A DNA stretch of 33,830 nucleotides from Candidatus Nitrosopumilus sp. GTDB lineage: Archaea > Thermoproteota > Nitrososphaeria > Nitrososphaerales > Nitrosopumilaceae. The stretch spans positions 1 to 33,830 of the forward strand of contig RKRY01000127.1 of the NCBI GenBank assembly GCA_007571135.1, in the 5' to 3' direction. A program made the translations under genes and the position numbers. Of the stretch, positions 258-30,702 are shown piece by piece (positions within the stretch are counted from its first letter, which is position 1; each line of letters opens with the position of its first letter). The notes under the pieces were generated by a model that worked only from the letters and a program-made list of their open reading frames with translations, was not told the origin of the DNA and did no database searches.

Positions 258-362
258 CTTGCAAAACATTTTACTGGCATCAGACTTTCCCGCTTCCGCT
301 CAGCATCATCACAACACTATCCTAGTTAACTTGCAAAACATTTTACTGGCATCAGACTTTCC
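258..362. repeat. Repeat-spacer-repeat unit: 33-nt perfect direct repeat (258-290, 330-362), 39-nt spacer, period 72
   Basis: cttgcaaaacattttactggcatcagactttcc present twice without mismatch; a partial third copy (cttgtaaaacatt) begins at 398. Confidence 0.9.
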
Positions 363-412
363 TGTCAAAGAGGTTCAGACACGAGTTTGTTTCCTGACTT
401 GTAAAACATTAC

Positions 413-702
413 CATAGCAAAGATCATAAATTCGTGAGGTGTTTTCCTGTAATCGGTCAAGTCAGCTTTGACAATTTCAACAAATTATGCAAGATTTATC
501 AAATTATTGAAAAATATACAGTATGTGAGCTATGAACTCCAATTTTTTACAAGTTCCTTTATGTGACTTGACCGATTACGTATGCAAGCTATGAACTCCA
601 ATTTTTTACAAATTCTTTCATGCGACTTAACCGGTTATGTTTTCCTAGGGTCTGTTCCTGTGATTGAACATTTGACCTCATGAACTTTTGCTTCTTGCTA
701 TG
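413..702. mobile_element. MITE-like element family 2, copy 1, interrupted by a family 1 element
   Basis: Outer parts catagcaaagatcataaattcgtgaggtgttttcct ... agggtctgttcctgtgattgaacatttgacctcatgaacttttgcttcttgctatg match the uninterrupted copy at 28162-28254. Confidence 0.75.
449..638. mobile_element. MITE-like element family 1, copy 1 (190 bp including a duplicated right end), flanked by 8-bp target duplication
   Basis: GTAATCGGTCAAGTCA (449-464) and its exact reverse complement (564-579); a 59-bp right-end unit is duplicated (521-579, 580-638); flanks gttttcct at 441-448 and 639-646. Confidence 0.85.
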
Positions 703-876
703 CCAGCATACACATACGCATACACAACACGTCTTACCTCCGCGCCTCCCTCCCATCTCCTACAAAAATGAATTATCACCGATAAATTCTACAACTGCTT
801 AGTTTTGAAATCTTGTCTCTCCTTTTTGATAGATCTTAGTAAACGTTTTAACAGACAGATGTTTCAAATTACAATT

Positions 877-1893
877 ATGGGAGATATACGCAAAGATTAT
901 GTTTCTGAACGCTTTATGATCGTCTCCAAAAAAGATGACAAGTCAGTAGATCCTAAAAAGTTCCCATACGCCCCTGGAAACGAATCGATGACAAATCCCT
1001 CCGTGCTGTCACTTGTCGCAAAAAACGGAATGCTGCAAAGACTGCAAGATAGTGAAGATGGACATGTTGAAGGATGGTCTATTAGAGTTTTTGAGAGCAA
1101 GAATCCCATCGTATCTGTCAAGACTGAAAATTCATACAGTGAAAGGCCATTTTATAGCGAACCGGCATATGGCTATCATTATATTGTTGTTGCATCTCCA
1201 AACCGAAAAGATACGCTTGCGACAATTGATGCCGAACAGTGGTCTAATGTTCTAGTTGTAGTCCAAGACAGGCTGCGTTGGTTGTATACGCAAAAGGGCG
1301 TAACATATATCTCAATTTACGCTGATCAAGGCGACTTGGCAGGAAGCACAAACCCGCATCCCCACCTCAACATGCTTACCTTCTCTACAATCCCCCCACT
1401 AATCGAAGAAGAAGCTGAGGCATCCCACAAGATTCTAAATGAGAAAGGCGTATGTCCAATGTGTCAAACAGTCGGTGAGGAGATTGGCGGTCCTAGACAG
1501 GTTCTTCAGACTGATGGTTTTATCGCTTTTTGTCCCTGGGCGCCTTCATATCCGTACGAATTTTGGGTTGCACCTAAAAAACACATTACAAGCTTCGCTA
1601 AAATTACCCAAAAGGAGATAAATGATCTGTCGTTAATCTTGAGAGCAACTCTGGGCGGCTTGACTAAAACCGTAAAAAACGTCTCTTACAATCTCGTGTT
1701 TCATCTGTCTCCTGAGAAGAAAAACAGCCGGCAGATACATTGGCATGTTGAAATTTATCCAATTACAAAGTCCTGGTCCGGCCTCGAGCGTGGCTATGGA
1801 ATATATCTAAACGATATCTCCCCCGAACAAGCTGCCAAAGAACTTGGAGTGGCATGCAGAAAAGAACTTGCAAGTCTGGTAGGCATAGTGTAA
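877..1893 (+). CDS. Galactose-1-phosphate uridylyltransferase family protein (HIT superfamily)
   Basis: MGDIRKDYVSERFMIVS..., NPHPHLN motif, CPMC putative zinc pair, HWHVEIYP near C-terminus. Start chosen at ATG 877; ORF stays open from TTG 805. Confidence 0.8.
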   Translation: MGDIRKDYVSERFMIVSKKDDKSVDPKKFPYAPGNESMTNPSVLSLVAKNGMLQRLQDSEDGHVEGWSIRVFESKNPIVSVKTENSYSERPFYSEPAYGYHYIVVASPNRKDTLATIDAEQWSNVLVVVQDRLRWLYTQKGVTYISIYADQGDLAGSTNPHPHLNMLTFSTIPPLIEEEAEASHKILNEKGVCPMCQTVGEEIGGPRQVLQTDGFIAFCPWAPSYPYEFWVAPKKHITSFAKITQKEINDLSLILRATLGGLTKTVKNVSYNLVFHLSPEKKNSRQIHWHVEIYPITKSWSGLERGYGIYLNDISPEQAAKELGVACRKELASLVGIV

Positions 1894-1934
1894 CCTCTGA
1901 ATGGTTTATTTATCAACCGGCCTCCTTTAATGAC

Positions 1935-2375
1935 ATGTCTCTGGAAAGATGGCTTGCAGTTGCCAGTGTTGGACTGTTTGCAATGTTTGCCGGGGAGATG
2001 TTTTCAGTCTACAATTTCATGATTGATGTTCCTGATGACTTTGAGTACGCTCAAGGTTTTGCCGCAGATCCTAAGATACTTCAGTTCATCTCCATCGGTG
2101 TGGCCCCTGCAGGCGTGTTGGCAGCCATTGCATTTATCATGTCAAGACAGTATGGCTCAAAACAGGTTGGCGGACTAATCGCTGGCGGGGGGGTCATCTT
2201 GCTTGCAGGAATGCTTGTATGTTACCTCATAATTCCAAGAATTCCCATATCTTACGTTACTGATGCAGTAGTTTACGTCCCGGTCGTCTTTATGGCCCTG
2301 TCTGCACCGGTGATGGGATTTGGCCTGTACCTCTTCAAACGCAGGGTGAGGCGACCAAAGAAAGAGTATTTCTAG
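1935..2375 (+). CDS. Hypothetical membrane protein (several predicted TM helices)
   Basis: ORF MSLERWLAVASVGLFAMFAGEMF... with long hydrophobic segments and basic C-terminus. Confidence 0.55.
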   Translation: MSLERWLAVASVGLFAMFAGEMFSVYNFMIDVPDDFEYAQGFAADPKILQFISIGVAPAGVLAAIAFIMSRQYGSKQVGGLIAGGGVILLAGMLVCYLIIPRIPISYVTDAVVYVPVVFMALSAPVMGFGLYLFKRRVRRPKKEYF

Positions 2376-2809
2376 GCGTGATCATACCTCATTCCGTTTG
2401 CAGTTGCCTGAAACCCGATCTTTTCATAATACGGTCTGAGACTGTCTGTGCAATGCAAAACCGTCTTGTAGCAGCCTCGATTCTTTGATTCTTCAAGCAG
2501 ATGTCTGATGATCTTCTCTCCGATCCCCCGTCCTTGAAACTTTCTGGATACGGCAACATCCTCTATGTGGCCCGCCAGGCCCCCATCATGGATGAATTTT
2601 TGCTCAATTAGCAGTGTGGCTGCTCCTACGACCCTCCCGTCAACTTTTGCAACTGCAATGATGTGATCCTTGTTTGAGTTAACTTTCTCAAAGACTTTCT
2701 CGGCCTTTGATCTTTTCATGCTGCCTGTCTCTCTTAGCGAGTCCAGAGATGCAAGGAACCCGTTCCACAGATCTTCTTTTTGCAAATCACGAATAATCAG
2801 TTTAGACAT
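2372..2809 (-). CDS. GNAT family N-acetyltransferase, glucosamine-phosphate acetyltransferase (GNA1)-like
   Basis: MSKLIIRDLQKEDLWNGFLASLDSL...GHIEDVAVSRKFQGRGIGEKIIRHLLEESKNRGCYKTVLHCTDSLRPYYEKIGF; GHIEDV and RGxGxK motifs. Confidence 0.8.
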   Translation of the reverse strand: MSKLIIRDLQKEDLWNGFLASLDSLRETGSMKRSKAEKVFEKVNSNKDHIIAVAKVDGRVVGAATLLIEQKFIHDGGLAGHIEDVAVSRKFQGRGIGEKIIRHLLEESKNRGCYKTVLHCTDSLRPYYEKIGFQATANGMRYDHA

Positions 2810-2814
2810 TTGGT

Positions 2815-3519
2815 TCAAATCCTGCCCAGTCTCTGTATGTATTGCTGATGTATCATCTTGTAGGATGCCTTGCTTCCGATATCTGTAAATCCATCCTTCC
2901 CTGTCACAAATGCGTTTACTGGTCTCTTGTCGCCTACCACTTCTTTTATCACGCTGTCCATTCCGTACGGCCTGTTTTTTGGAATGTATTTGAAGATTTC
3001 GCGTTCCATCACATAGCATCCCATGTTGATGTTGGCTTCGATCTCTGGCTTTTCATTCCAGCTTGTAACCCTGCCATTCTTTGTCGTTTCAATCACCCCA
3101 TACGGCAGATTTGTCTTGTATTTGTGCAGACTCATCGTAACAAACGATCTTTTCTTCAAGTGTTCCTTTATCATGCCCTTTAAGTTAAAATTGAAGACAG
3201 AATCTCCATACATGCAAACAAAGGTCCCGTCTAGAAACCCTTCGGCAGTCTTTAATTGACCTGCCGTGGCAAGCGGCCTATCTGAAACCGCATATTCTAT
3301 GTTTGTCCCAAACCGCCTCCCGTCTTCAAAATAGTCCTCGATGGCTCTTCTAAGATAGCTTACGCACAGTACAATGGATCTTACTCCGTTCTTTTTGTTC
3401 CAATCTATCAGGTGTTCTAAAATCGGCTTCTCCCCCAAAGGCAGCATCGGCTTTGGCAAAAACGTAGTATACGGCTGGAGTCTAGTGCCCAAACCTCCTG
3501 CCAGAATCACTGCTTTCAC
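2815..3519 (-). CDS. NDP-sugar nucleotidyltransferase
   Basis: MKAVILAGGLGTRLQPYTTFLPKPMLPLGEKPILEHLI is the canonical nucleotidyltransferase signature; followed directly by the GNA1-like gene. Confidence 0.88.
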   Translation of the reverse strand: MKAVILAGGLGTRLQPYTTFLPKPMLPLGEKPILEHLIDWNKKNGVRSIVLCVSYLRRAIEDYFEDGRRFGTNIEYAVSDRPLATAGQLKTAEGFLDGTFVCMYGDSVFNFNLKGMIKEHLKKRSFVTMSLHKYKTNLPYGVIETTKNGRVTSWNEKPEIEANINMGCYVMEREIFKYIPKNRPYGMDSVIKEVVGDKRPVNAFVTGKDGFTDIGSKASYKMIHQQYIQRLGRI

Positions 3520-3543
3520 ACCATCCTGTCATAAAATGAATAT

Positions 3544-4863
3544 TTATGTCTGAGATTTTATGCATGAAACGATCTTTGTAATCTTCTCAACGACTTTTCT
3601 CGGATTCTCCCCAAATACAATCATCATTGCCTCCTTCCCAAAGTCTCCTTTGTGAAAAATTACGTCCGGGTTTCTTTCCAAATCCTTTATGGCAGACCCC
3701 ATTCCCCATTGAATAGACGAGCCCCCAGTTTTCACACTCTTAGGTTCTGACCCTCTGTCGTAGCCTGCCACCACAAATTTCTTTTCCGAGATCTTTTTGA
3801 GGGTCTCCTCCCGATATTTTATGTTGATTGCTGATTTTATATCGGGAAATTTTTTGCTGATTGCTAGCAGAGCCGTTGCGACGTGTGTCGAACCACCGTA
3901 CCTCAAGTCCCCTGCAACGATGACTCCCGTACCGGATTTGACGATTCTTCCGGAAATCCCCAGGACGTCCAGGGTCGACTTTGGATTTGTCTTTGAAATA
4001 ACAAAATTTGTCTGGCATTCTGGAATTATCCGGTGTACGTTTTTGATCTCCGTAAATTTTTGAATCTCAGATGAGAGCTCTTTTTGGAGCGAATCCTCAA
4101 CCAGGCTGCCTGTCACGGCAACCCCGCATCCAATTCTTCTTGCGTCTTTTATGGACTTTAATGTGAACTCTTTGGCGAATTTTGCCGATTCCCTGACACT
4201 TTTTTTGTTTGCAAGTGAGAATGTGACAAGGGCCGAATACGTGCATCCGCTCCCGTGATTCTCTCTGAATATTCTTTGAGCAGATAGTGAGTACATGGAA
4301 TCCTTTTCGAGCACCAGATCTTCGATCAAATCTTCATCCTTTTTAATTCCGGTAACTATGACATTTTTTGCGCCCCAGTCCTGGATTCTCCTTGCAATCC
4401 TTTCAATTGTGTTTGACGGTGAAACCTTGGAATTTGTAATGATCTCAGCTTCAAATCTGTTTGGCGTGATGACTGTTGAAATTGGAACAATGTACCTTCT
4501 AAAATCCTTTAATGCATCTCTTTCAATCAGCATTCCTCCCGTCGTGGATTTTATGACCGGATCGACTACTATTGGAGCTTTAAGCCCGCTTAATTCTTTG
4601 AAAAGAAATCGGATTATCTTAGAATTGTAGACCATTCCGATCTTCACTGCGTCTATTTTAAAATCGGACAGGATTGAATCTAGCTGACTTTTTAAAATTT
4701 TAATCGATACCGGCTCGACCATTCCAAAACTTGAAGTGTTCTGGCCCGTAATTGCTGTAACTACTGTAAAGCAATTCGCATCCGTGGTTGCAAATAATTT
4801 GACATCGCTTTGGATTCCGGCCCCCGATGACGGATCAGAACCCCCTATGCAAAGTAGGTTCAC
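3544..4863 (-). CDS. thiD: Bifunctional HMP(-P) kinase / ThiN-type thiamine-phosphate synthase fusion
   Basis: N-terminal MNLLCIGGSDPSSGAGIQSDVKLF...VVDPVIKSTTGG...GSGCTYSA (ThiD) and C-terminal ThiN-like region. Confidence 0.88.
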   Translation of the reverse strand: MNLLCIGGSDPSSGAGIQSDVKLFATTDANCFTVVTAITGQNTSSFGMVEPVSIKILKSQLDSILSDFKIDAVKIGMVYNSKIIRFLFKELSGLKAPIVVDPVIKSTTGGMLIERDALKDFRRYIVPISTVITPNRFEAEIITNSKVSPSNTIERIARRIQDWGAKNVIVTGIKKDEDLIEDLVLEKDSMYSLSAQRIFRENHGSGCTYSALVTFSLANKKSVRESAKFAKEFTLKSIKDARRIGCGVAVTGSLVEDSLQKELSSEIQKFTEIKNVHRIIPECQTNFVISKTNPKSTLDVLGISGRIVKSGTGVIVAGDLRYGGSTHVATALLAISKKFPDIKSAINIKYREETLKKISEKKFVVAGYDRGSEPKSVKTGGSSIQWGMGSAIKDLERNPDVIFHKGDFGKEAMMIVFGENPRKVVEKITKIVSCIKSQT

Positions 4864-5270
4864 ATTGATCTTTTCATTTTTCCCCTAATCTGCTTTTCCA
4901 TTTTTCACCGCAGAATGCCCAAACAGCAGTTTTGCGATACAGGACGGATATATGATAAAATCTCATGCGGCCACTACAGTTTTGACGCACTGCATGTCGC
5001 CTCCCATCAATCACTAAAAAAGACGAAAAATTCCTTGGAGTGCTTCAAACACCGGACTTCCTAGGCTCAAAAAGTCCCTGTAAAATGTTAAGAATATTCA
5101 GATCCCCCCCCAAACAGTCTTGTCTGAAAGCCATTTTTTGAAAAAGGCATCTAAAACCGACACCGCAATCCGCCTCTACCGAGTTAACCGATCTAAAATG
5201 ATCAGTGGCTATAGGACAAGGATCTCCGTGATTTGATGATGTTTAAATCAGGTGAGCCTAAAGACTACTT

Positions 5271-6593
5271 ATGGCTACACAGATGACGTCGGCCCGCAGG
5301 GGCGTTGCAACCGACGAGATGAGACAAGTTGCAAAAGATGAAGACGTCTCTATTGACTGGCTGATTCCAAAAATTGCAAATGGATCCATCATCATTCCAA
5401 GCAATAACGCAAGACCCCAAAAGATTCACAATGTGGGAATTGGGAAAGGTTTGAAGACGAAGGTCAACGTAAACATTGGCACCTCTACATTAAACGTCAA
5501 TCTAGACGAGGAGATCGAAAAGGCAAAGGTCGCAGTAAAATATCATGCCGACACCATGATGGATCTTAGCGATGGCGGTGACGTAAAAAAGATACGGCAG
5601 ACGTTATTGGACGTGGCACCAATAACATTTGGAACAGTTCCAATTTATGAGGCATACAATTATGGCGTTGAGGTTCACAGGAACCCGCTGAACCTGACTG
5701 AGGATGACTACATTAAGGCATTTGAAAACAACGTAAAAGACGGCGTTGATTACACGACGATTCATTGTGGCATAACAAAGGACATTGCAAAGAGAATCTT
5801 AAGAGTCCAGAGACGCGGAGGCGTGGTTAGCAAGGGCGGGACAATTACTGCCGCATGGATGCTAAAGCATGACAAGGAAAACCCGTACCTGACTCATTAC
5901 GACTATCTGATCGAGGTTGCAAGGAGGTATGATGTTACATTTAGCCTTGGAGACGCCCTTAGACCTGGTTCGATTCTAGATTCCCATGACGAGTTGCAAG
6001 TCCAAGAGATGATCAACGTTTCGCAACTGACTAAACGCGCACATGAGCAGGACGTTCAGGTAATGGTTGAGGGTCCGGGACATGTTCCACTTGACGAGGT
6101 TGCAGCCAATGTCAGACTGGCCAAGTCGTTGATTGGCAACGTCCCATACTATGTTCTAGGACCGCTCGTAACTGACATTGCGTCCGGCCATGATCATATC
6201 GCAAGCGCAATTGGTGCCGCCGTTTCAGCAAGCGAGGGAGTTGATTTACTGTGCTACCTTACTCCGTCTGAACACCTGGCATTGCCCAATACCGAAGAGG
6301 TAAAATCAGGATTGATAGCATACAGGATTGCCGCACACGCAGGAGACCTTGTAAAGATTAGAGAAAAAGCCATCAAATGGGATGCGGAGATGACTGAGGC
6401 ACGCCGGACCCTTGATTGGGAGAGACAGATTGCACTGTCCATAGATCCAGAAGAGGCAGCAAGGATTCATGGCAGAACAGGCCAGCATCCCGGAAACAAC
6501 GTTCCTTGTACTATGTGCGGGGGCGCATGCGTATACATGATGCTTCCCCAGCAGAGGAAATATGAGAGTGAAAATGAGGCTACAACAAGCTGA
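5271..6593 (+). CDS. thiC: Phosphomethylpyrimidine synthase
   Basis: Full-length ThiC features: NIGTS, MDLSDGGD, HCGI, EGPGHVPLDE, YYVLGPLVTDIASGHDHI, C-terminal CTMCGGACVY cluster motif. Confidence 0.96.
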   Translation: MATQMTSARRGVATDEMRQVAKDEDVSIDWLIPKIANGSIIIPSNNARPQKIHNVGIGKGLKTKVNVNIGTSTLNVNLDEEIEKAKVAVKYHADTMMDLSDGGDVKKIRQTLLDVAPITFGTVPIYEAYNYGVEVHRNPLNLTEDDYIKAFENNVKDGVDYTTIHCGITKDIAKRILRVQRRGGVVSKGGTITAAWMLKHDKENPYLTHYDYLIEVARRYDVTFSLGDALRPGSILDSHDELQVQEMINVSQLTKRAHEQDVQVMVEGPGHVPLDEVAANVRLAKSLIGNVPYYVLGPLVTDIASGHDHIASAIGAAVSASEGVDLLCYLTPSEHLALPNTEEVKSGLIAYRIAAHAGDLVKIREKAIKWDAEMTEARRTLDWERQIALSIDPEEAARIHGRTGQHPGNNVPCTMCGGACVYMMLPQQRKYESENEATTS

Positions 6594-6999
6594 GTAGCAC
6601 CCTTTGCAGGCCCGGCACCGTCTCGTAACCTTCCAATTCGTCTGCGTCGATCCACCTAAACTCAGAGTTTTCCCAATTCAGCCTGATGACCGGATCTTTT
6701 GCTTCAAACAGGAATGGAAAAATTTCCCATTCGTGATCTTTGTGTTGTGGCAAACTCACCATGATCTCTTGGGCCGCCCTGACTAGCGTGACATCTTTTT
6801 CAGCAATTCCCACCTCTTCAAAAATTTCAACCTTGGCCCGCCGAAGTGGCTCCTCATTTTCTTCTATAACTCCGCTAATTCCTGCCCACAGTCCCCTCAT
6901 GGATTTTACTTGGCCACTCCGCTTTAGGATCAGCAGTCTCCTGCCGTCTCGAATAAATGACGTGACAATTTTCGTCAGGCGCACCCCGTTACTTTTCAA
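6580..6999 (-). CDS. NUDIX hydrolase
   Basis: GLWAGISGVIEENEEPLRRAKVEIFEEVGI matches the Nudix box pattern. Confidence 0.85.
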   Translation of the reverse strand: MKSNGVRLTKIVTSFIRDGRRLLILKRSGQVKSMRGLWAGISGVIEENEEPLRRAKVEIFEEVGIAEKDVTLVRAAQEIMVSLPQHKDHEWEIFPFLFEAKDPVIRLNWENSEFRWIDADELEGYETVPGLQRVLLSLL

Positions 7000-7932
7000 C
7001 GGCCTTGACCATCTTAGTCATCCTTTTGTAAGACTTGTTGATGTCTGTGTGCTTGCCGAGCCTCTCTTGGCAGTCCTTGATGTACTTTACAACTTCCTCT
7101 GTCTTTGACTCTTGCACTGCGGTAAGCAGCCGTCCTATGTCCTTCCATAGCTCTTCGGCAACCCTTCGAATCTCCGGATTTGCAATGATCGTCTCAATCA
7201 ATTCCGGCGATTCTGTCATGATGCTTTCGGCCAGCGTCTTTTGGACTCTGAAGGTTGTCCCGGACATTTTTTCTGTCAGCAACATCTTCTCATCTTTTGA
7301 AACAATGTTTGCAAATACCAAGTTCATCAAATGGGTCAATCCCAAGATTACTGCAATCTTTTTGTCATGTTCGACTACGTCAATCGTGACAAAGTTTGCC
7401 CCTTCAAACAGCGATTTTGCAACCGCCAATTCTTTTTTAGCGTCCTTGACAGGGACTGAGATTATGTTCTGCCCCCTCATCGTCTTGATACCTGGTCCGA
7501 ACATCGGATGAATGCAGATCGGGTTAATCTTTGCAGGCATCCTTGTCAATGATGAGACGACTTTGGATTTTTCTGAAGAAATTTCAATCAGGTACGTTCC
7601 CCGCTTCATCTCTTTTGCAATCAGTCTGATGATCTCAGGGGTCTTTCTTGTAGGCGTGCATAGCACAACATAATCGGCCTTCAAAATTGCACCGACAAGT
7701 GATTCTGCCTGGATGATCTCCTTTCCTGCGGCCGCCTTTTTTTCTGAATCATATCCTGTTACCTCAAAACCCTTGCCTAGAAAATATTTTGAGAACCACT
7801 GTCCCATCTGCCCTCCTGCGCCTATGACTGTTATCTTCTTTTTTTGCTTCAGAACCCATCAGTGCTCCGGTATGAGACATTGCCTCCTGCGCCTATGACT
7901 GTTACCTTCTTTTTTTGCCCCTTCTTCTTCAT
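6989..7932 (-). pseudogene. tyrA: Prephenate dehydrogenase with 5' end interrupted by a 71-bp repeat-spacer insertion; ORF track start (7807) lies inside the dinucleotide-binding motif
   Basis: ATG at 7932 overlaps the upstream stop (ATGA) and reads MKKKGQKKKVTVIGAGG then goes to a stop; the second copy reads KKKITVIGAGGQMGQWFSKYF in another frame. Confidence 0.7.
7812..7918. repeat. Repeat-spacer-repeat unit: ~36-nt repeat (7812-7847, 7883-7918), 35-nt spacer, period 71
   Basis: cctcctgcgcctatgactgtta[t/c]cttctttttttgc twice. Confidence 0.9.
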
Positions 7933-16488: not shown

Positions 16489-16668
16489 ATAGCTACGAGC
16501 ATAAATCCATCGGTATCGCGCCACCTGCCTTCCAGTTGTAATTGGATCCAGTCTTTCGCAATAGTTACGAGCATAAATCCATCGGTATCGCGCCACTGGG
16601 ATAGTATTCGGTGCTGTCCGTTATCGTCTCAGATAGCTACGAGCATAAATCCATCGGTATCGCGCCAC
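16489..16668. CRISPR. Minimal CRISPR-like array: three 36-nt repeats, two 36-nt spacers, period exactly 72; no cas genes in window
   Basis: atag[c/t]tacgagcataaatccatcggtatcgcgccac at 16489-16524, 16561-16596, 16633-16668; spacers unrelated to each other. Confidence 0.5.
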
Positions 16669-17200
16669 CGATACACACATAGATCCCTGCATTCCACGCG
16701 TTGTCATGACATCAGACAACACGGATCTCAGAATGGAATGCAAAAGGGAGAGAAACTTTGCGATCGGAAGAAGGATACTTGCAGCACACATGGTCTGCTA
16801 GCAGGGCCTCACCGCGACGCGCACGGCAGAGCTCCTGATGCAGTGTCCAGACTGGGTAAGCATGTGGGTGCGTAGTGTCTACGTTAGATAAGAGCTTATC
16901 TTGACGGGTCCGACCTTACCGTTATCCAGCATTGCACGAATCGACTCCTTTATCTCCTTTGTATTCCTATACAACCTGTTGCCGGTGCCCTTGCGGATCA
17001 TGCGTCACTGTATCTCTACCGGGTTGAGCTCCAGTGTGTACGGGAGAAGGTATCCAAGCACTACGTCGTCTCATGATCATCAGGATATTTTTTTACCGCG
17101 ACCGATTTGTGGTATCCAACGCTGTCAAGACATGCGAGGATCCTACCAAATCTTTTACGCAGCTCCTCTAGGAACCCGATAAGGCTCCCGCCGTCTGCCC

Positions 17201-17311
17201 TGTCTGCAAACCGGCAGACAAACCCGTCCCTGTGCAACCCCAAATGAGATCAGATAGTCTATTGAGCGGGCGGTGTCTGCAAACCGGAAGACAAACCCGT
17301 CCCTGTGCAAC
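17201..17311. repeat. Repeat-spacer-repeat unit: 38-nt repeat (17201-17238, 17274-17311), 35-nt spacer, period 73
   Basis: tgtctgcaaaccgg[c/a]agacaaacccgtccctgtgcaac twice. Confidence 0.92.
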
Positions 17312-17366
17312 GCGCCAAACGAGTGGAACCTTTTTCCTGACAGGCTGACAGGTGTTGTCACCGGCA

Positions 17367-17475
17367 TGCCGATCGGGTACCATCCGTTCCAGATGTTCCA
17401 CTGGTCCAAAGACGCGCGTGGTACTCCTGTCATTTTTGTATGCCGATCGGGTACCACCCGTTCTAGGTGTTCCAC
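17367..17475. repeat. Repeat-spacer-repeat unit: 35-nt repeat (17367-17401, 17441-17475), 39-nt spacer, period 74
   Basis: tgccgatcgggtacca[t/c]ccgttc[c/t]ag[a/g]tgttccac twice. Confidence 0.88.
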
Positions 17476-18227
17476 CCTATGATGTAAGATGTCTCATCAT
17501 GGCAATTGCCTGTATTCCATGGCCGCGTGGCGTCTTACGTCCTTCTATCTTTTTTTTAAACGCGTTCCGTTCGTATTCTGAGACGGCCTTTGGGTGTTTT
17601 GGCCTTGGCCTGCGTGATGGGAAGCATCCTGTGCAGCAGATCATACATGCCGGAGGAGGCGTACATTGCGCCGAACTTTTTCCCGACGTGTACTATCAGC
17701 AGTCGTGCCGTCCACAATGATGACTCGAACCCGCATCTGTCAGGACCTGCAATCAGGTCTGTCCGCAGCTGCCTGAGCTGCTCTGGCGTGAGCTTGCACG
17801 ATGCGCCCGGCCTTGTCTCGTCGCATATGCCGCCAAAACCGTCCCTCACAGTCCGTCCCGGCCAGTTGCGTATGGCAAGTACGGCCTGTCAAGGGAGTCA
17901 GATATGACATACGCCGACATCCTCTCCTTTCTCATGGCGTATGCCAAGAGTCTGTCTTTTGCCTTGGGATTCCTCTCTTCTTTGTGCATCCAGCGCGGCC
18001 GCGCCAGGCCGATGCCCCTTAGAAAACCACATTTGGTAAGCGTCTTTTTTGATTTAACCATGCAATATGACAGATGTCCCGTGATCATACACTTCGATCA
18101 GTCTTTGTTGACAAAATGATAAGTGATTGTCAATCGGGATCACTACGCATCTGTTGGCATTTCACTTTTCTTTTTTGTACATGTACCTATCAAGAATTAA
18201 ATAGAAATTCCAAAGGATAAAAATCAA

Positions 18228-19346
18228 TTGAGTCAGACAACAGAACAAATTCAAAAAAGCGATATCGGGGATATTTTAGAAAATTCCTTAAATGGACAAA
18301 GGCCTGATCCAGAAGGCTGCATGAGACTTTTAGAATCTGATGATGTGCATTTAATGGGACTGGTTTCGGGTCATCTGACTAGAAGGCGATTTGGGAAAAA
18401 GGCTTCCTTTGTAAATAACATAATTTTGAATTATACCAATGTCTGTATTACTGATTGCAAGTTTTGTGCATTTTACCGTTCTCCTGGAGATGACGATTCA
18501 TACACTTTGACGCTTGATCAAATAGAGGCAAGAGTAAAGACTTCTTGGGACATGTTCAATATTCGGCAGGTTTTGATTCAAGGTGGACACAATCCAAATT
18601 TGAAAGTTGAATATTATGAAGATGCTTTTAGAATGATTCGTGAAAAATTCCCAAAGGTCGGAGTACATGGATTGTCAACTTCTGAAATTGACATGATTGC
18701 AAGAGTTGAAAAATCATCTACCAAAGAAATTCTTTTTAGGTTAAAAGAGGCCGGTTTGCAATCCGTGCCTGGCGCAGGAGCTGAAATCTTGGTTGATTCC
18801 GTTAAGGATGTGATCAGTCCAAAGAAAATCTCAAGTTCTGACTGGATTAGAATCATGGATGAAGCGCATTCACTTGGTCTTCCGGCATCAGCTACAATGA
18901 TGTATGGGCATGTAGAAAACAAGCAGGATATCGTCGATCACTTTTTCAAAATTGTCAAACTACAAGAAAAGACGAGGGGATTCATGGCGTTTATACCTTG
19001 GAATTTTGAACCAAACAATACTTTGATGAATGAAGAAGGCCTTGTTGGATATGGAACCGGCGGAACGCAACTCTTGAAGATGATTGCAATTTCCAGACTG
19101 GTGTTTGACGGGTTGATACCACACATTCAATCTTCGTGGCTTACAAATGGGGTTGGAATGGCACAACTAGCACTCCAATACGGTGCTGATGACTTTGGCG
19201 GTACCCTGATTGGTGAAGAGGTGGTTTCCTGTACCGGTGCCCGCTCGACTGAACTTACCGACAAAATCATTACGGATGCAATTCATCAAATTGGTTATCA
19301 GGTAGAAGAGAGAGATAATTTCTACAATCCTATTTTAGTATCATAA
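18228..19346 (+). CDS. mqnC: Radical SAM protein of the MqnC/CofH family, likely cyclic dehypoxanthinyl futalosine synthase
   Basis: NYTNVCITDCKFCAFYR radical SAM cluster motif, LIQGGHNPNLKVEYYEDAFRMIREKFP, PGAGAEIL, ATMMYGHVE, GADDFGGTLIGEEVV. TTG start. Confidence 0.78.
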   Translation: MSQTTEQIQKSDIGDILENSLNGQRPDPEGCMRLLESDDVHLMGLVSGHLTRRRFGKKASFVNNIILNYTNVCITDCKFCAFYRSPGDDDSYTLTLDQIEARVKTSWDMFNIRQVLIQGGHNPNLKVEYYEDAFRMIREKFPKVGVHGLSTSEIDMIARVEKSSTKEILFRLKEAGLQSVPGAGAEILVDSVKDVISPKKISSSDWIRIMDEAHSLGLPASATMMYGHVENKQDIVDHFFKIVKLQEKTRGFMAFIPWNFEPNNTLMNEEGLVGYGTGGTQLLKMIAISRLVFDGLIPHIQSSWLTNGVGMAQLALQYGADDFGGTLIGEEVVSCTGARSTELTDKIITDAIHQIGYQVEERDNFYNPILVS

Positions 19347-20783
19347 TCCATATTCGGACCATCTGGAATCTACGAGATTTTTTGTTTCATCATCAACCTT
19401 TACTTGTTGTTGAATCTCTCGCGTGTATCCCTCTTCCTTTGTCTTCTGGGTTGCATCAATTCCCATTTTCGAACCCAGGTTGACAAGAGGCGATGCTGGA
19501 TCTAACGTGTCAGTTGGCACATTGTTGATAATTGTAGTATCTCTTGCAGCATCAGTTCTAGTGGTAATTGCCCACAAGACATCATTTATGTCATGGACAT
19601 CAATGTCTTGGTCTACTACGACAAATATCTTAGTTAGAGACAACTGGCCCATTCCCCATAGTCCCATCATGACTTTTTTTGCTTGTCCTGGATACCTTTT
19701 TTTAATTGAGATGATCGCAAAACCTTGGAACCAGCCTGCAGCCGGCAAGCTAAAGTCAACTACTTCTGGATGGAACATTCTAATTAATGGTAAAAATGAA
19801 CGTTCGATAACTTTGCCAATATACGCATCCTCGAGGATAGGTTTTCCTACAACTGTTGTAACATAAACAGGATTCTTCCTTCTCATAATCCCGGTTAATG
19901 TAAAAGTTGGGTATGGTTCGACTGGTGTGTAATATCCCGTATGATCTCCAAACGGTCCTTCGTCTCTAATGTCTACAGGATCGACGTATCCTTCTAAAAC
20001 GATCTCTGCATTTGCCGGTACATCCAAATCAACGGTTTTGCATTTTACTGTCTTGATTCCTTCTTTTCTTGTAATTCCTGAAAACAAGTATTTGTCCAGT
20101 CCTTCAGGAACCGGTGCGACTGATGAAAATATTGTTGACGGTTCTGAACCAATAATTACCGCAGTCGGGATTTTCTCTCCTTTGTCTTTTGAAATTTCTC
20201 CATGATGGGCTCCTCGCTTGTGTCTTTGCCAGTGCATTAGTGCATGAGTCTTGTCTACAATTTGCATTCTGTAAACACCCAAATTTCTAACACCTGTCTC
20301 AGGATGTTTTGTTGCAACCAACCCCAGGGTGATAAATCGTCCTGCGTCATCAGGCCATGATTTTAGAATTGGCAAATCTTCAAATGATGCATCAGTTGAG
20401 GTAATTTCTGTCACAGGTCCTGAGGCTTCTGGTTTTGGAAACGATGAAGTCATCTTTGACAACTCTGGAAGTTTTTTTATTTTTCCAAGTAATCCTGATG
20501 GGATATCCATCCTTGTCATATCTACAATTCTCTGACCAATCTCTGTAAAATCAGTCATCTCCAAACCAATCTCCAACCTTCTCATTGAGCCAAACGCATT
20601 GCCCAAAACTGGCATATCGTACCCTTTGACATTTTCAAATAGAATTGCGGGACCGTCTGAATATGCCCCTCTTCTCATAATCTCGGCAATCTCTAGATTT
20701 GGGTCAACATCAGTCTTCACTCGTTTTAATTCCCCCTGTCTTTCTAATTCTGTGATAAACTCTTGAATGCTTTCAATTGGCAA
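19341..20783 (-). CDS. UbiD family decarboxylase (possibly menaquinone-pathway MqnL-like)
   Basis: UbiD-type GPFGDHTGYYTPVEPYPTFTLTGIMRRKNPVY and related blocks; 3' end overlaps the mqnC-like gene by 6 nt. Confidence 0.85.
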   Translation of the reverse strand: MPIESIQEFITELERQGELKRVKTDVDPNLEIAEIMRRGAYSDGPAILFENVKGYDMPVLGNAFGSMRRLEIGLEMTDFTEIGQRIVDMTRMDIPSGLLGKIKKLPELSKMTSSFPKPEASGPVTEITSTDASFEDLPILKSWPDDAGRFITLGLVATKHPETGVRNLGVYRMQIVDKTHALMHWQRHKRGAHHGEISKDKGEKIPTAVIIGSEPSTIFSSVAPVPEGLDKYLFSGITRKEGIKTVKCKTVDLDVPANAEIVLEGYVDPVDIRDEGPFGDHTGYYTPVEPYPTFTLTGIMRRKNPVYVTTVVGKPILEDAYIGKVIERSFLPLIRMFHPEVVDFSLPAAGWFQGFAIISIKKRYPGQAKKVMMGLWGMGQLSLTKIFVVVDQDIDVHDINDVLWAITTRTDAARDTTIINNVPTDTLDPASPLVNLGSKMGIDATQKTKEEGYTREIQQQVKVDDETKNLVDSRWSEYGL

Positions 20784-21305: not shown

Positions 21306-22070
21306 ATGGCAGTGACTAAAAAGCAGACCAAAAAAGATCTTGAAGCAAAAATTTCAGAATTAGAAGAAAAACTATCAAAATTATCTGCACAACTTTCAAA
21401 GCCGGCAGAGGTCCCAAAGCCAAAGGAGTCCCCAAAGCCGGCAGAGACCAAACCCGCCGAACCAACCAAACAGAAGGGGACTCTTCCCAAGGGGATGGAA
21501 CAGCCGGCAGAGACCAAACCCGCCGAACCAACCAAACAGAAGGGGACTCTTCCCAAGGGGATGGAACAGCCGGCAGAGGTCCCAAAGCCGGCAGAGACCA
21601 AACCCGCCGAACCAACCAAACAGAAGGGGACTCTTCCCAAGGGGATGGAACAGCCGGCAGAGGTCCCAAAGCCGGCAGAGACAGACGCGCAACCTCCGCC
21701 AACGATTCAGGCAGCATTAGAGGATGCTTACTATGATGCTCCGGAAACAAGTTTCCATGATTATAGAGCAAAAGTAACAGGTTACTCTCCAGCTCCAAAC
21801 AGATACTTTGTTAGAAGGACCGCCCCAGTGGGGAAAATCCCAACAACAAACTGGAATGAACAAAAAGTCAAAGTCACGGGTTACACACAACCATCACACC
21901 AATACTTTGCAACAAGACCAAGACTTGCATACCATCCACCAGACAAAATGTTTGGGGGTTTCAGTGGTGGCACCATGATCGTCGATGGTGTTAATGCACA
22001 GGTGCAAACACAACAAGCATACACTCTGGAACCGCCAAAACCAAAAGGTACGCTTCCAAAAGGGTTCTAA
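21306..22070 (+). CDS. Repeat protein: coiled-coil-like N-terminus, Pro/Lys-rich tandem repeats, C-terminal KVTGY repeats
   Basis: KKDLEAKISELEEKLSKLSAQL; PAETKPAEPTKQKGTLPKGMEQ three times; AKVTGYSPAPNRYFVRR and VKVTGYTQPSHQYFATR. Confidence 0.75.
   Translation: MAVTKKQTKKDLEAKISELEEKLSKLSAQLSKPAEVPKPKESPKPAETKPAEPTKQKGTLPKGMEQPAETKPAEPTKQKGTLPKGMEQPAEVPKPAETKPAEPTKQKGTLPKGMEQPAEVPKPAETDAQPPPTIQAALEDAYYDAPETSFHDYRAKVTGYSPAPNRYFVRRTAPVGKIPTTNWNEQKVKVTGYTQPSHQYFATRPRLAYHPPDKMFGGFSGGTMIVDGVNAQVQTQQAYTLEPPKPKGTLPKGF
21401..21680. repeat. In-frame near-identical tandem repeats (66-nt and 18-nt modules)
   Basis: 66-nt unit at 21437, 21503 and 21587; 18-nt gccggcagaggtcccaaa at 21401, 21569 and 21653. 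Confidence 0.92.
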
Positions 22071-22329: not shown

Positions 22330-22422
22330 CAAAACGGGATCGTGTTTACTTTCAGAATTCTTGGAAATATTTACAGTTTATCATGTAATTTTTAAAAAAA
22401 TTCCTGTCTGTGCGTTGGTCAT

Positions 22423-22700: not shown

Positions 22701-22751
22701 CAAACTATTGGACATCCAAATACATAAATTCCTTGATGTGGTGTTTATTTC

Positions 22752-22934
22752 ATGGCAACTCACGGTTCGCTTACTAAGGCAGGCAAGGTACGAGGACAAA
22801 CCCCTAAAGTTGAAGGAAGAAAAATTACAGGTACAAACTCTAGTCTTAGAAATAAGAGTAATTTCAAAAAGAGGTTTGTCTTAGGTAGGATTCCGGGTCA
22901 GAATAAGCCGGGCCAAAAACGGAGAAGACGTTAA
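22752..22934 (+). CDS. 30S ribosomal protein eS30
   Basis: MATHGSLTKAGKVRGQTPKVEGRKITGTNSSLRNKSNFKKRFVLGRIPGQNKPGQKRRRR: HGSLxxAGKVRGQTPKV. Confidence 0.88.
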   Translation: MATHGSLTKAGKVRGQTPKVEGRKITGTNSSLRNKSNFKKRFVLGRIPGQNKPGQKRRRR

Positions 22935-23094
22935 TCAAATTTTCAAGTAATTTTATCAAATAACTATCAATCATCAGAACACATGCGTTGTACCCAGACA
23001 GTCGTGCATCAGGAATCTCTCCCCATACTGAACATCAAGTAACTCTCAGAGCACCTGCCATCATAAACAGTCCATCAGCAAGCAGGGTATTTTC

Positions 23095-23225
23095 GTAATC
23101 GGTTAAGCCACATGAAAGAATTTGTAAAAAATGGAAGCTCATGGCTTGTATATTGTATATTTTGTAATAACTTGATAAATCTTGTATAATTAGTTGAAAT
23201 TGTCCAAACTGACTTGACCGATTAC
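23095..23225. mobile_element. MITE-like element family 1, copy 2 (131 bp, inverted relative to copy 1), flanked by 8-bp target duplication
   Basis: gtaatcggttaagcca...tgacttgaccgattac, flanks gtattttc at 23087-23094 and 23226-23233; interior matches the reverse complement of 449-579. Confidence 0.9.
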
Positions 23226-23321
23226 GTATTTTCAGTACCGTCTGAGTGACTTCTGTCCTTCCCTGTCACATATGGTTACAATACACAATCCATATGCGCG
23301 TTGAAAATAGCATATCCACGG

Positions 23322-25225: not shown

Positions 25226-25916
25226 CTGCAAGCCCCAAAAATTTAGAATCAAAGTCCTTGTCTGCCAGTAGCACATCTGGCTTGCCTGAAAACATCTTCT
25301 TGCCGCCTGCAAACAGATAGCACCGATCACCGATTGCAAGTGCGTCTTTGACGTTTTGCTCAACTAGGACTATGCAGTTGTGTAGTGCCGTCTGTATCTC
25401 CTTTATCTTCTCCAGCACCATATTAGATGCGGCAGGTGAGAGGCTGGCAGTTGGTTCATCAAAAAGTATGATGTTAGGTTTTTTTGATATGCACATTGCC
25501 ATTGCCAGCAGTTGGCGCTGTCCGCCGCTGAGATCCTTTGCCTTTTGATGTAGCCTGTCTTGCAGCATGGGAAAGAACTCAAAGATATGGTTCCAGTCAG
25601 GCTTGTCTGGCATACTTGCAACAAGCAGATTGTCTCTGATGGTAATATCTCCAAAGACATTGTTTGTCTGTGGCATGTAAGATACCATGGACATTATCTT
25701 GTAGGTAGGAAGTCCTGTGATGCGCTTATCATACAAGGATATCTCACCAGAGTAAACATCTGCAAGTCCACATATCGCTTTTAGTAATGTGCTTTTGCCT
25801 GATCCGTTAGATCCCACTATCACAGTAATTTGCTGCCCTGCTTCAAAAGAGACATCATACAGTATCTGATGCTTGCCATAACCGCAACAAAGGGAGTCTA
25901 TTGATATTGGCATCAT
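25209..25916 (-). CDS. livF: ABC transporter ATP-binding protein (LivF family)
   Basis: Walker A GSNGSGKSTLLKAI, LSGGQRQLLAMAMCISKKPNIILFDEPTASLSPAA. Confidence 0.88.
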   Translation of the reverse strand: MMPISIDSLCCGYGKHQILYDVSFEAGQQITVIVGSNGSGKSTLLKAICGLADVYSGEISLYDKRITGLPTYKIMSMVSYMPQTNNVFGDITIRDNLLVASMPDKPDWNHIFEFFPMLQDRLHQKAKDLSGGQRQLLAMAMCISKKPNIILFDEPTASLSPAASNMVLEKIKEIQTALHNCIVLVEQNVKDALAIGDRCYLFAGGKKMFSGKPDVLLADKDFDSKFLGLADDNTS

Positions 25917-26662
25917 CTCAGATACGACTCTATTACTTTCTTGTTGTGCAGTATCTTATCAGGCGTGTCACTTGCAAGTAGCTTGCCGCCATCTAGCACC
26001 ATGCAAAAATTTGCATACTGTAAGGCAATATCAAGCCTGTGCTCTATTATTAGAAAGGTCGTCTTTGTTGCATTACATATCTGTGTGATCTTTTTGAATA
26101 TCTTGTGTGCAAGAACCGGGTTGATACCAGCTATTGGCTCATCAAGCAAGACAAGCTTGCAATCAGACATTAGTACTTTTCCTAACTCAAGCAGTTTTAT
26201 CTGCCCCCCGCTAAGATCATAGGCCAGGTTGTCTTGCAGTTCTTTTAGGCCAAGCTCCTCTAGTATTGATAGTGCCTTCTCTTTGATGTTCTTTTCAGTT
26301 TGGTTCCATCTCTTTGGAAACAGCGCGTCGACAAATCCCTCACAGGTGCCGCTCTTTGCTACAAGGAGATTTTCAAGAACGGACAAGTTCTCAAAGAGCC
26401 GCGGTGTTTGAAATGTTCTGATGATGCCTTTGTGAAATATCTGGTGAGGGGGCTTGTTGGTTATTGGTTCTCGGCAAAACATAATGGCGCCTCCGCTAGT
26501 CCTTTGAAACCCCGATATGCAGTTAATCAGCGTTGTCTTGCCTGAGCCATTTGAACCCATAAGCAAGTTGATCTTATGCGGCCTTGGAGTTAAGGAGACG
26601 CTATCAACTGCCCTTATGCCGCCAAAAGTCTTTGTAAGATCATCTAATATTAAATCACTCAT
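25913..26662 (-). CDS. livG: ABC transporter ATP-binding protein (LivG family)
   Basis: MSDLILDDLTKTFGGIRAVDSVSL, Walker A GSNGSGKTTLINCISG, RTFQTPRLFENLSVLENLLVA, LSGGQIKLLELGKVL. Confidence 0.88.
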   Translation of the reverse strand: MSDLILDDLTKTFGGIRAVDSVSLTPRPHKINLLMGSNGSGKTTLINCISGFQRTSGGAIMFCREPITNKPPHQIFHKGIIRTFQTPRLFENLSVLENLLVAKSGTCEGFVDALFPKRWNQTEKNIKEKALSILEELGLKELQDNLAYDLSGGQIKLLELGKVLMSDCKLVLLDEPIAGINPVLAHKIFKKITQICNATKTTFLIIEHRLDIALQYANFCMVLDGGKLLASDTPDKILHNKKVIESYLR

Positions 26663-27899
26663 CATAAAAATCAAAGGCATTCTCACTTACGTGATAATAC
26701 CCATGCAGATACCAACCATCCTCGCCTATGCTCCACAAGGCATAGTTTGATATGGCCAAGTCTCCAGCATCATTAAATGTGATCTTCCCAATTGCGCCAT
26801 CATCATATGTTGCGGCAACATCAGGAAGGGCAGAAATAATTACCGCAGAATCAGTGGAACCTGTCTCCAGGACGGCATTGCCAATTAGCCATACTGCGTC
26901 ATATGCAGAGTATGCATACGCATTGGGAATGGAGCCTGTCTGCTCTATTAGAGCCTGATTAATGTGCTGGACAGTTGGGCTGTCCGGTGCTGAGAACTGG
27001 GTTGTAACAAGGCCTACATCAGTGGCAAATGCAGTTGCTATCTTGTCTGATGTAATGGCATCGTCATTTGAAGAGCCATCAGATCCATACCAGCTTACAT
27101 TACGCAGGTTGTCATAAGAGCCCACAAAATTAAAGAGGTGTACTACTTCTGAAAAACCAATTACCAGCACTGCAATCTCGTCGTTTGTATAGCCATCTTG
27201 GACATAGTTGCTTACGATACCGTCAAGCAACGATGCCTCCGAAGAAAAGACTGTAACTTCAGGGGAGTATCTGATGCCGGGGTCTACCGTTCCTCCCAGT
27301 GAGACAAAGGAGTCAAGAGTTGACTCGTAAAGACCGTCCCCCCAGACATCACCGCGATATATTGGCACTATTACCTTGATGCCATCATACACAAACAGTT
27401 CTGCTAGGACCTTGCCCTGTTTTGTGTCATCTGGGATTAGTCTGTAAATATTGTCGTCTATGGCAAGTTTTGGTGATGTGGATGATGGCGAGATTAGCAA
27501 CATTCCGTTAGAGTCGGCATAAGACTTTATGTTGTTTAGTTCAGCGCTTGTCTGTGTCCCAACAATTAAACTAATACCTTTGGAGTTTAGGGACTGGATC
27601 TTTTCGAGTGCGACTACCGGATCTGTCTGCGTATCTTCTACTATCAACTCCATGGAATAGTCAGAGTCAAGCGCAATTAGATGCTTGTTAAAGTCCTCTA
27701 CTGCTAGTTGTACTGCCAAGTTGCTGTCCGAACCATGACTTGCAAGATCCCCTGTGGCTGGAAGCAGTGCACCAATTGTTATTGCATTAGGGCTTGTATC
27801 CACAGACATTTCTGATGCGTCTTGTTGAGAATAAAATGCTAAAGATGATGCGATTATAACTATAATTATGCCTGCAATTATTGGATAAAATTTGTTCAA
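26655..27899 (-). CDS. livK: ABC transporter substrate-binding protein (LivK-like)
   Basis: N-terminal membrane segment, ITIGALLPATGDLASHGSDSNLAVQLAVEDFN; overlaps livG. Confidence 0.85.
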   Translation of the reverse strand: MNKFYPIIAGIIIVIIASSLAFYSQQDASEMSVDTSPNAITIGALLPATGDLASHGSDSNLAVQLAVEDFNKHLIALDSDYSMELIVEDTQTDPVVALEKIQSLNSKGISLIVGTQTSAELNNIKSYADSNGMLLISPSSTSPKLAIDDNIYRLIPDDTKQGKVLAELFVYDGIKVIVPIYRGDVWGDGLYESTLDSFVSLGGTVDPGIRYSPEVTVFSSEASLLDGIVSNYVQDGYTNDEIAVLVIGFSEVVHLFNFVGSYDNLRNVSWYGSDGSSNDDAITSDKIATAFATDVGLVTTQFSAPDSPTVQHINQALIEQTGSIPNAYAYSAYDAVWLIGNAVLETGSTDSAVIISALPDVAATYDDGAIGKITFNDAGDLAISNYALWSIGEDGWYLHGYYHVSENAFDFYDE

Positions 27900-28161
27900 T
27901 TTACCATGAACACAAGGATAGTTTAATTTAAACTTTAAGAAGCCTGGTGTATATTGTTTGTGCCGTATCCATAGCTGAGATCAAATGGCACGCATAATCA
28001 GACACCGGTAAAGATTCATGCCAAATACCAGACATACAAAGATCGTACATATTCAGATGCAGTTTGACTGAACTTGCCCAGATAGAAGACATGAAGATTT
28101 GAGAAAGTCGGCATCAAGGCTATCTGTGAGAGTGCAGACGTCACGAAGGGAAGTATTTTGA

Positions 28162-28254
28162 CATAGCAAGGATCATAAATTTGTGAGGTGTTTTCTCAGG
28201 GTTTGTGCCTGTAATTGGACATTTGACCTCATGAACTTTTGCTTCCTGCTATAG
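28162..28254. mobile_element. MITE-like element family 2, copy 2 (93 bp, uninterrupted)
   Basis: catagcaaggatcataaatttgtgaggt...acctcatgaacttttgcttcctgctatag; imperfect terminal inverted repeats (about 20 of 27 positions). Confidence 0.75.
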
Positions 28255-28390
28255 CGATGCTTGACGTATTAAGGTTGGGATCGCCAAAATGATCGATTGT
28301 TTATTGTAAATGCGACGTTACTTGAAGAAGAGTCATCAGCATACCACCAAACGAGAACAGGTGTTAAAGGCAATGCATCTTCAACAGCAT

Positions 28391-28411
28391 GTTTTTTTAA
28401 TTTAAAAAAAC
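28391..28411 (-). terminator. Palindrome/terminator-like hairpin overlapping the NRAMP-like stop codon
   Basis: GTTTTTTTA-att-TAAAAAAAC, 9-bp perfect stem with U-rich arm. Confidence 0.4.
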
Positions 28412-29691
28412 TTGGTTACGACAAATACGCCTGCAAAGCCTACCAAAAACACAAGGCCCGCATAGCTTAGCATTTTCAAAAATATTGAGGGCCTGTGTTG
28501 TTTTTCTAAGAACCGTCCACGTACAAGCTTAAAATTAAAGATTGCAATCACAGGTGCAATAACAAAAGACAACACAGTTGCAAAATCAACTAGAGATTTT
28601 AGATTGTTACCAAACGCAAGGATTACTATCAAAGAGCCCAATGCCAAGACAACTAGTATTGAAAAGTATGTGTGATTGTAATGGGTATCAGGCGTATCTT
28701 TTCTGGTAAATAGCAATTGTGTCGTTCTGTGTATTGAACGGGAGTACCCATCAAAAGCTGCAATGATAGTACCAAACATTACGGAGAAAGCACAAGTCGA
28801 TATCAAGATGTAACTCCACTCACCGATGGTTTTCGAGTATAGTGTGATTACGCTGTGCGCAAATTTGGCATTGTTGTTTGGCAGCTCAGTTCCAGTGCCA
28901 TAAAACATGAAAGCGCCCAACGTTACGAACATTACTGCAAGTACTGCAGTAATGACATATGCCAGTCTGAACTCAAACAGTGTCTCTTTGAGTGTAGGTC
29001 GGTACTTGCTTTGTTTAATTCTGGCTAGCGTCCACAAGCTGTTCCAGCTGGAAAGATCGATTGCAGTTGGCATCCAACCCATTAGTGCAAGCAAAAAGAA
29101 GATCCCTCTATCATCCCACAATTCTCTTGGTTCAAAGGTCTCAGATGTATGTGTTGGTCCGCCATGCAACGCAAATGCAAATGCGGCTACTGTAGATACA
29201 AGCATGACTATTGCGACTATTTTGATAATGCCATCCAATGCACTGTATCGTCCCACCGCTAAAATCCCAACGCATATTGCAAATAAGGCTACAAGTGTCC
29301 ATCCTCCCGTAGAATCCAAGCCAAACAAATTCTCAAAAAACCCTGCAGTTACAAATCCGACTGCTCCAGTTACAAAAAACATCGAGCAGATAGTTATGAT
29401 AAAATACATCCAGAGTGCCGGCCTGCCTAGTCTTAGGTACCCGTCAATTATGCTTGTTTGTGTGGCCACAGCATAACGGGAGCCGTACTCAAAGAAAGGA
29501 TACTTTAGTACGTTTGCCAGTATCACAAATCCCATAATCATCAAGCCAAACTCAGCACCTGCACGCGTTGATTGCACTAGGTGAGATACACCGATGGCAG
29601 TACTTGCAAACAAGATGCCCGGACCTGCAGTTTTTGTGTATGTGGTTAGCCTGTTCAATTTTAAGCCTGTGTGAGGATCCGGATTATTCAC
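28402..29691 (-). CDS. NRAMP (SLC11) family-like transporter
   Basis: GPGILFASTAIGVSHLVQSTRAGAEFGLMIMGFVILANVLKYPFFEYGSRYAVATQTSIIDGYLRLG and GWMPTAIDLSSWNSLW. Confidence 0.75.
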   Translation of the reverse strand: MNNPDPHTGLKLNRLTTYTKTAGPGILFASTAIGVSHLVQSTRAGAEFGLMIMGFVILANVLKYPFFEYGSRYAVATQTSIIDGYLRLGRPALWMYFIITICSMFFVTGAVGFVTAGFFENLFGLDSTGGWTLVALFAICVGILAVGRYSALDGIIKIVAIVMLVSTVAAFAFALHGGPTHTSETFEPRELWDDRGIFFLLALMGWMPTAIDLSSWNSLWTLARIKQSKYRPTLKETLFEFRLAYVITAVLAVMFVTLGAFMFYGTGTELPNNNAKFAHSVITLYSKTIGEWSYILISTCAFSVMFGTIIAAFDGYSRSIHRTTQLLFTRKDTPDTHYNHTYFSILVVLALGSLIVILAFGNNLKSLVDFATVLSFVIAPVIAIFNFKLVRGRFLEKQHRPSIFLKMLSYAGLVFLVGFAGVFVVTKFF

Positions 29692-30244
29692 TAATAATTA
29701 AAACTAAGCACCAAATACCCTCAGACATACAGCTCAACTCAAGAACAATTGGCTGGCAAATATCTTATGATTGTCTTAATCTAGTAATCAGTGCGCCAAA
29801 TTCAGCCGCAAATGATTAAGAATCAACTGCCATACAATGAAATGTGATAAAAATGTACTTCCAAAGCATGTTAGAACCAGCAGACCAAGAGATGATGGCA
29901 AGAGAAAGATCATCGACTGAATAACCCACATGACTACTTTGGGATGCGGATAAATGAGATATCTGCAAGATATGACAAGATGTTGTGACATCTATAATCA
30001 GATTTCTAGGATATCTATTCCATTCTGGTTGAAAGTGAATATAACTTGCATATTCGTTGGTCTGTTCTACGATTTCAGTGTTTTATGATTCTCGTGGAGT
30101 TGCAAAAGAATCACCAACAACGGATGTTGAAAGTAATGTAAGAGAAATCATCATCATGATGGCTAATTTTACAATACCATATCGCCAAATAATACTATTA
30201 ATTCATCGGTACAAATTCAAGAGAGAAGGCAGTCTCCAAGAATT

Positions 30245-30439
30245 TCAAAAATCAAGCCCAATAGAAGGAGATGGTTTCTTTTCCTTGGTAGGACAGGATT
30301 TGCCTTCACCGTCTTCACCTCCACCATGAGGTGTCACATCAGAGGTTTGTGCAAATACTGAATCCATTGGAAGTGCAACTGAAAAGATTGACACTAGTAC
30401 AATAATTGAAAACATGACAATCTTTGAATTCATACCCAT
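30245..30439 (-). CDS. Small secreted protein (signal peptide, 64 aa)
   Basis: MGMNSKIVMFSIIVLVSIFSVALPMDSVFAQ followed by a short polar tail. Confidence 0.45.
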   Translation of the reverse strand: MGMNSKIVMFSIIVLVSIFSVALPMDSVFAQTSDVTPHGGGEDGEGKSCPTKEKKPSPSIGLDF

Positions 30440-30595
30440 GGTAGGGAGTTTTAGAATTTAAGTATAATGAATCCCGAGAGTAGAGAGGGATTGTCCAGAA
30501 CTTTGCAATCAGTTGCAGATACATCGCCAGTTTGTCTGTCTTTTGCTACGTGTCGCGTGTCGATCGGCAGATTGGAGCAGGATCTCTTCACATGT

Positions 30596-30702
30596 CAGAA
30601 CAAGGCGCCATGCAAACAGCAGGCCGTGTGCTGGATTGACACCGATTACTGCAATTTGTGAAATGACCAGAACAAGGCGCCATGCAAACAGCAGGCCATG
30701 TG
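30596..30702. repeat. Repeat-spacer-repeat unit: 35-nt repeat (30596-30630, 30668-30702), 37-nt spacer, period 72
   Basis: cagaacaaggcgccatgcaaacagcaggcc[g/a]tgtg twice. Confidence 0.92.

Follow-up and report, generated by a model that had tools for sequence, protein, structure and literature searches.

Neo-CRISPR-like insertions of about 36 nt with 36-bp target duplications scattered across a Nitrosopumilus genome

Six repeat-spacer-repeat units in one contig

The window, here the whole stretch of 33,830 nt that was analyzed, is contig C98 of a 1.47-Mb draft genome (175 contigs, 90.6% complete) that gene content and nearest relatives assign to Nitrosopumilus. Its UbiD-like protein (19341-20783) displayed 94% identity to the closest named record, from Nitrosopumilus sp. 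IP29b_bin.65, and no RNA families or tRNAs were found within the window. A preliminary description had reported six units in which a direct repeat flanks an unrelated spacer, and all six were recovered with the same positions and periods. Their repeats measure 33-38 nt at 92-100% identity, and their spacers of 35-39 nt are unrelated. The units and the features that carry them are as follows:

U1, 258-362, intergenic: repeat 258-290, spacer 291-329 (39 nt), repeat 330-362; period 72, repeats 100% identical
tyrA, 6992-7807, minus strand: remaining part of the prephenate dehydrogenase gene with the N-terminus split by U2; Pfam PDH_N and PDH_C
U2, 7812-7918, in the 5' end of tyrA (minus strand): repeat 7812-7847, spacer 7848-7882, repeat 7883-7918; period 71
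U3, 16489-16669, mini-array: repeats starting at 16489, 16561, and 16633 with two differing spacers of 35-36 nt; periods 72+72, repeats 95-100% identical
Decayed IS630-like transposon, 16867-18150, minus strand: carrier of U4 and U5; many genomic copies by blastn, HTH_33 winged-helix match
U4, 17201-17311: repeat 17201-17238, spacer 17239-17273, repeat 17274-17311; period 73
U5, 17366-17475: repeat 17366-17401, spacer 17402-17439, repeat 17440-17475; period 74
U6, 30596-30702: repeat 30596-30630, spacer 30631-30667, repeat 30668-30702; period 72, repeats 97% identical

The remainder of the transposon, which had no model match, would be of the IS630/DDE_3 type as read off its translation. The window also holds a dispersed non-coding element of ~131 bp (449-579, 580-637, 23094-23225, and 28153-28252) with dozens of genomic copies in a MITE-like expansion, and an ORF (21306-22070) without a Pfam match that contains in-frame tandem repeats of 66 and 84 bp at 21400-21662 (EPTKQKGTLPKGMEQPAETKPA).

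Empty sites and a fixed insertion geometry

Comparison with unoccupied sites, as proposed in the preliminary description, bore out its view of each event as an insertion of ~36 nt accompanied by a target duplication of ~36 bp. Joining the flanks of U2 yields a frame encoding MKKKGQKKKVTVIGAGGQMGQWF, which matches the tyrA start of 18 congeners, whereas a stop codon interrupts the occupied frame; tyrA orthologues were present in 38 of 40 congeneric genomes. Eight sister sites of U4 carry a single repeat and no spacer. The 36-bp duplication at the U5 target is common to the window, L158, and L103, each with a different spacer, and the same target is empty in L149, L140, L012, and L080. A further sister copy of the transposon (L143 16516-16972) holds a larger insertion at the U5 site, in which a ~21-bp motif is repeated in tandem and a copy of the 131-bp element also occurs. 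In total, about 20 units have empty counterparts elsewhere in their own genome. The empty orthologous and paralogous sites demonstrate that the units arose by insertion.

Some units were used repeatedly and grew to two or three spacers. Three such sites were identified, namely U3 (three repeats, two spacers), L146 (four repeats, three spacers), and L166 (three repeats, two spacers). The U3 repeat corresponds to the last ~36 bp of a dispersed element that recurs in L132, L129, L101, and L080, with copies at 16489-16525 and 16633-16796 of the window, L132 5789-5952, and L129 7661-7600; since the target is exactly the element end, U3 was inserted at the junction of element and flank. The repeat-spacer architecture and these mini-arrays might suggest remnants of ordinary CRISPR arrays or a single dispersed repeat family, a reading that is scarcely credible given that the repeats are unrelated between sites and that each is the local target sequence, occurring singly in the empty orthologue or paralogue. 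For units with empty sites this origin was excluded.

A scan for repeat pairs at all offsets, covering 971 kb of the 1.47-Mb genome (about two thirds, with the remaining third covered by query only), gathered 51 clean units, one of which (L085_7947) is doubtful as it sits within a collagen-like repeat. With low-complexity pairs removed, there were 6.7 pairs per offset at 70-75 versus 0.085 elsewhere in the range 40-120, or ~80 times the background. The peaks lay at 72 (28 pairs) and 73 (17 pairs), and nearly all offsets outside 70-75 held few pairs each, many of them protein repeats. By proportion, about 75 units would be expected in the whole assembly. Several contig ends carry units or ends of multi-copy elements (e.g., L125:1, L111:14-53, and L127:13-52), so the assembly probably breaks at such repeats and may understate how many units exist. 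The comparison set for 36/36 units comprised 139 loci from relatives (1.57 Mb in total), and no such geometry was found there except in canonical CRISPR arrays adjoining cas1. The genome-wide excess that the preliminary description had proposed to look for is therefore present in its own genome and lacking in the relatives apart from these arrays, and its claim of unrelated targets sharing one geometry held for the 51 units, in which the repeat differs from site to site and is in each case the local target sequence.

Across the units, apparent lengths were 36.7 +/- 2.4 nt for the repeat, 35.6 +/- 2.6 nt for the spacer, and 72.3 +/- 1.2 nt for their sum. Simulating a constant 36-bp duplication together with an inserted fragment of 36.3 +/- 1.2 nt, with chance extension and mutation permitted, returned near-identical numbers, indicating that the target duplication is essentially fixed at 36 bp. 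The spread of apparent repeat lengths (32-45) is thus mostly chance extension and later mutation around that value, with a small excess beyond the model for repeats of at least 42 nt (6% observed versus 2.5% simulated). A ruler acting on the constant sum, as the correlation of -0.89 between repeat and spacer length might suggest, was rejected because the simulated fixed duplication already yields -0.85.

The repeat copies are identical in about half of the units and differ by point mutations, down to 89-92% identity, in about half. Hardly any old, diverged units lie below the score threshold, and with diverged units so scarce the activity looks recent. The point mutations also bear on an assembly or library artefact, in which chimeric reads would have been joined by the assembler, a concern raised in the preliminary description and encouraged by the short-read-like draft of 175 contigs with its many dispersed repeats. 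Such an artefact is very improbable, as it would not account for mutational differences between the copies, the lengths are fixed at 36 with no tie to a k-mer, and the fragmented draft genomes of relatives contain no such units.

Inserted fragments and target preference

At least 19 of 54 spacers, and hence at least a third, match other loci of their own genome, so that host sequence makes up much of what was inserted. Fifteen of these match within the scanned two thirds, most of them over the full length at 94-100% identity, and four match own contigs outside the scanned part (C161, C172, and twice C153). The count is a lower bound since 40 of 86 candidates were scored in this search. Two further spacers (L154_492 and L122_6180) matched only at conserved places in congeners. 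In clear cases the source match starts and stops at the unit boundaries. The U2 spacer shows 94% identity to own contig L129:6-39 and also matches a conserved place in congeners, and the U6 spacer is identical over 36/36 positions to own contig L098:3745-3710, within an open frame of 233 codons; no source was located for the U1 spacer when its own genome was searched. The fragment sources include protein genes, and one reads like the 3' end of a tRNA, an assignment supported by its unchanged occurrence in most congeners.

Most spacers had no identified source among the own genome, congeners, and phage records. The comparison with viral data suggested in the preliminary description gave no viral match, as the spacers were without a match in phage records and four window spacers, including both from U3, had no exact 21-mer in IMG/VR; instead many proved to be host DNA, which had not been foreseen. 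That description had also considered that spacers might derive from adjacent sequence. Simple tandem duplication was rejected, because the spacers bear no relation to the sequence around them, and for many a match lies at a distant locus of the genome. No clear PAM emerged from the source loci; TTN adjoined one or the other side of 6 of 13 protospacers, with about 2 expected (p about 0.01, from an uncorrected hand count with ambiguous ends).

Target preference was analyzed for 90 boundaries, each oriented from the flank inward to the repeat. Position -2 was G/C in 73% (p 3e-8), T was depleted at +1 (p 4e-5), and an A-rich run at +6 to +9 was followed by G/C at +12 (p 5e-4). The preference is weak and has the same sense at both ends, which is the pattern that a two-fold symmetric integrase would leave. 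The units lie mostly in short-frame, non-coding, or transposon DNA and seldom interrupt long frames, as a loss of harmful insertions would predict.

The boundary motif and the sources together bear on a templated repair origin, in which fill-in at a break with long staggered ends would duplicate ~36 bp and a distant fragment would be ligated in at the same time. Fragments copied from distant own loci and the slight excess of long repeats are in keeping with such repair. It is nevertheless quite improbable, since variable lengths would be expected and both lengths are tightly fixed here, and since recurrent use of one site with identical boundaries along with the symmetric boundary motif requires an enzyme with a ruler.

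The candidate integrase and known systems

Pfam models for Cas1, Cas2, DevR/Cas7, and the Cas10 palm had no match in the whole 90.6%-complete assembly, which also lacked a match to the reverse transcriptase domain (PF00078, RVT_1) and to the type I-G repeat of the genus. The sole Cas4-like match, a frame of 215 aa below the cut-off, is probably a solo nuclease. Cas1-family genes were found in 33 of 95 congeners. One of these, G079, encodes a type I-G module (L172 396-2384 and the array that follows) with a Cas4-Cas1 fusion scored as Cas1g and with Cas2g, and the array has 36-bp repeats, spacers of 35-39, and a period of 71-75. The preliminary inference of an off-target Cas1-Cas2-like integrase is thus upheld in part, by the genome-wide excess and by a geometry equal to that of CRISPR arrays in the genus, while the cas1 and cas2 genes it had proposed to seek elsewhere in the genome were not detected by Pfam models in the assembly.

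The units probably originated through "neo-CRISPR" formation, in which a Cas1-Cas2 complex of the CRISPR type integrates spacers off target, on an unusual natural scale, with the identity of the enzyme drawn from the geometry of its products. A Cas1-Cas2-type integrase, perhaps aided by Cas4, which the genus's type I-G modules include, would capture DNA fragments of ~36 nt, many of them from the host chromosome, and insert them at numerous places outside CRISPR arrays. The two active sites of the enzyme would attack opposite target strands 36 bp apart, gap filling would duplicate the intervening 36 bp to leave a repeat-spacer-repeat unit, and some units would be re-used to hold two or three spacers. 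The integrase gene may lie in the unassembled or unbinned part of the genome, may have been lost, or may reside on a mobile element. The units would be by-products that now serve no function and persist mainly in non-coding or transposon DNA. Since the enzyme genes are absent from the assembly, the pattern is described as working like neo-CRISPR formation and not as a proven member of that class.

An integrase or transposase unrelated to Cas1 that carries host fragments of ~36 nt and attacks the strands 36 bp apart is rather unlikely; it would amount to a second, non-CRISPR form of spacer integration in archaea. This alternative draws on an assembly without cas1/cas2 despite the recent look of half of the units, whose repeats are identical, and on identified fragments that are mainly host DNA. 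In contrast, all measured features fit the products of Cas1-Cas2 as well as the CRISPR array geometry seen in the genus, no candidate gene for another enzyme was found, and ~10% of the genome is missing from the assembly.

Integration of the Cas1-Cas2 type, if responsible, bears on the open question of how CRISPR arrays originate from nothing. Dozens of single-event footprints are available with empty alleles and with source DNA identifiable for a third, so that one can measure in nature the ruler, how targets are chosen, which sources are favored, and how young arrays grow. The footprints further suggest a mutagenic side to spacer integration, in that it can break genes such as tyrA and scatter host sequence. 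Should the enzyme not be Cas1, the units would represent a new integration system.

Casposons span kilobases, carry terminal inverted repeats, and leave target duplications of about 14-15 bp. They share Cas1-family chemistry with the proposed mechanism, and several congeners have Cas1-family genes, but the inserts here are ~36 nt long without terminal repeats, the duplications are 36 bp, and the assembly holds no Cas1 gene; a casposon origin was rejected on these grounds. Acquisition from RNA by an RT-Cas1 was likewise rejected, as no reverse transcriptase domain was found in the assembly. The type I-G arrays of the genus (L172, G079) match the units in repeat length (36), spacer length (35-39), and period (71-75), but those arrays use one repeat sequence and are clustered beside cas genes, whereas each unit has its own repeat and the units are scattered without cas genes. 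The units are not canonical CRISPR arrays, as the repeat differs per site, at most four copies occur (L146), and cas genes are lacking.

To our knowledge, natural off-target spacer integration has been documented only sparsely. Work by Nivala, Shipman and Church from 2018 reportedly relied on overexpressed Cas1-Cas2 in E. coli, with few natural cases suggested. Overexpression of Cas1-Cas2 leads to spacer integrations in non-array regions (PMC11788318), and off-target Cas1-Cas2 events favor a leader-repeat-like sequence context (PMC6895254). The literature searched had no match for the term "neo-CRISPR"; two papers cite work on off-target integration of this kind (PMC11788318; PMC9456107). The units resemble neo-CRISPR events in being single units at non-CRISPR sites with a repeat-length target duplication, a spacer-length fragment, and a loose site preference. 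They differ from those obtained by overexpression in E. coli in that the assembly holds neither a CRISPR locus nor cas1, and in that dozens of natural units with much host DNA occur in one genome. What is novel relative to known off-target integration is the absence of a CRISPR locus, the host-DNA content, and the scale.
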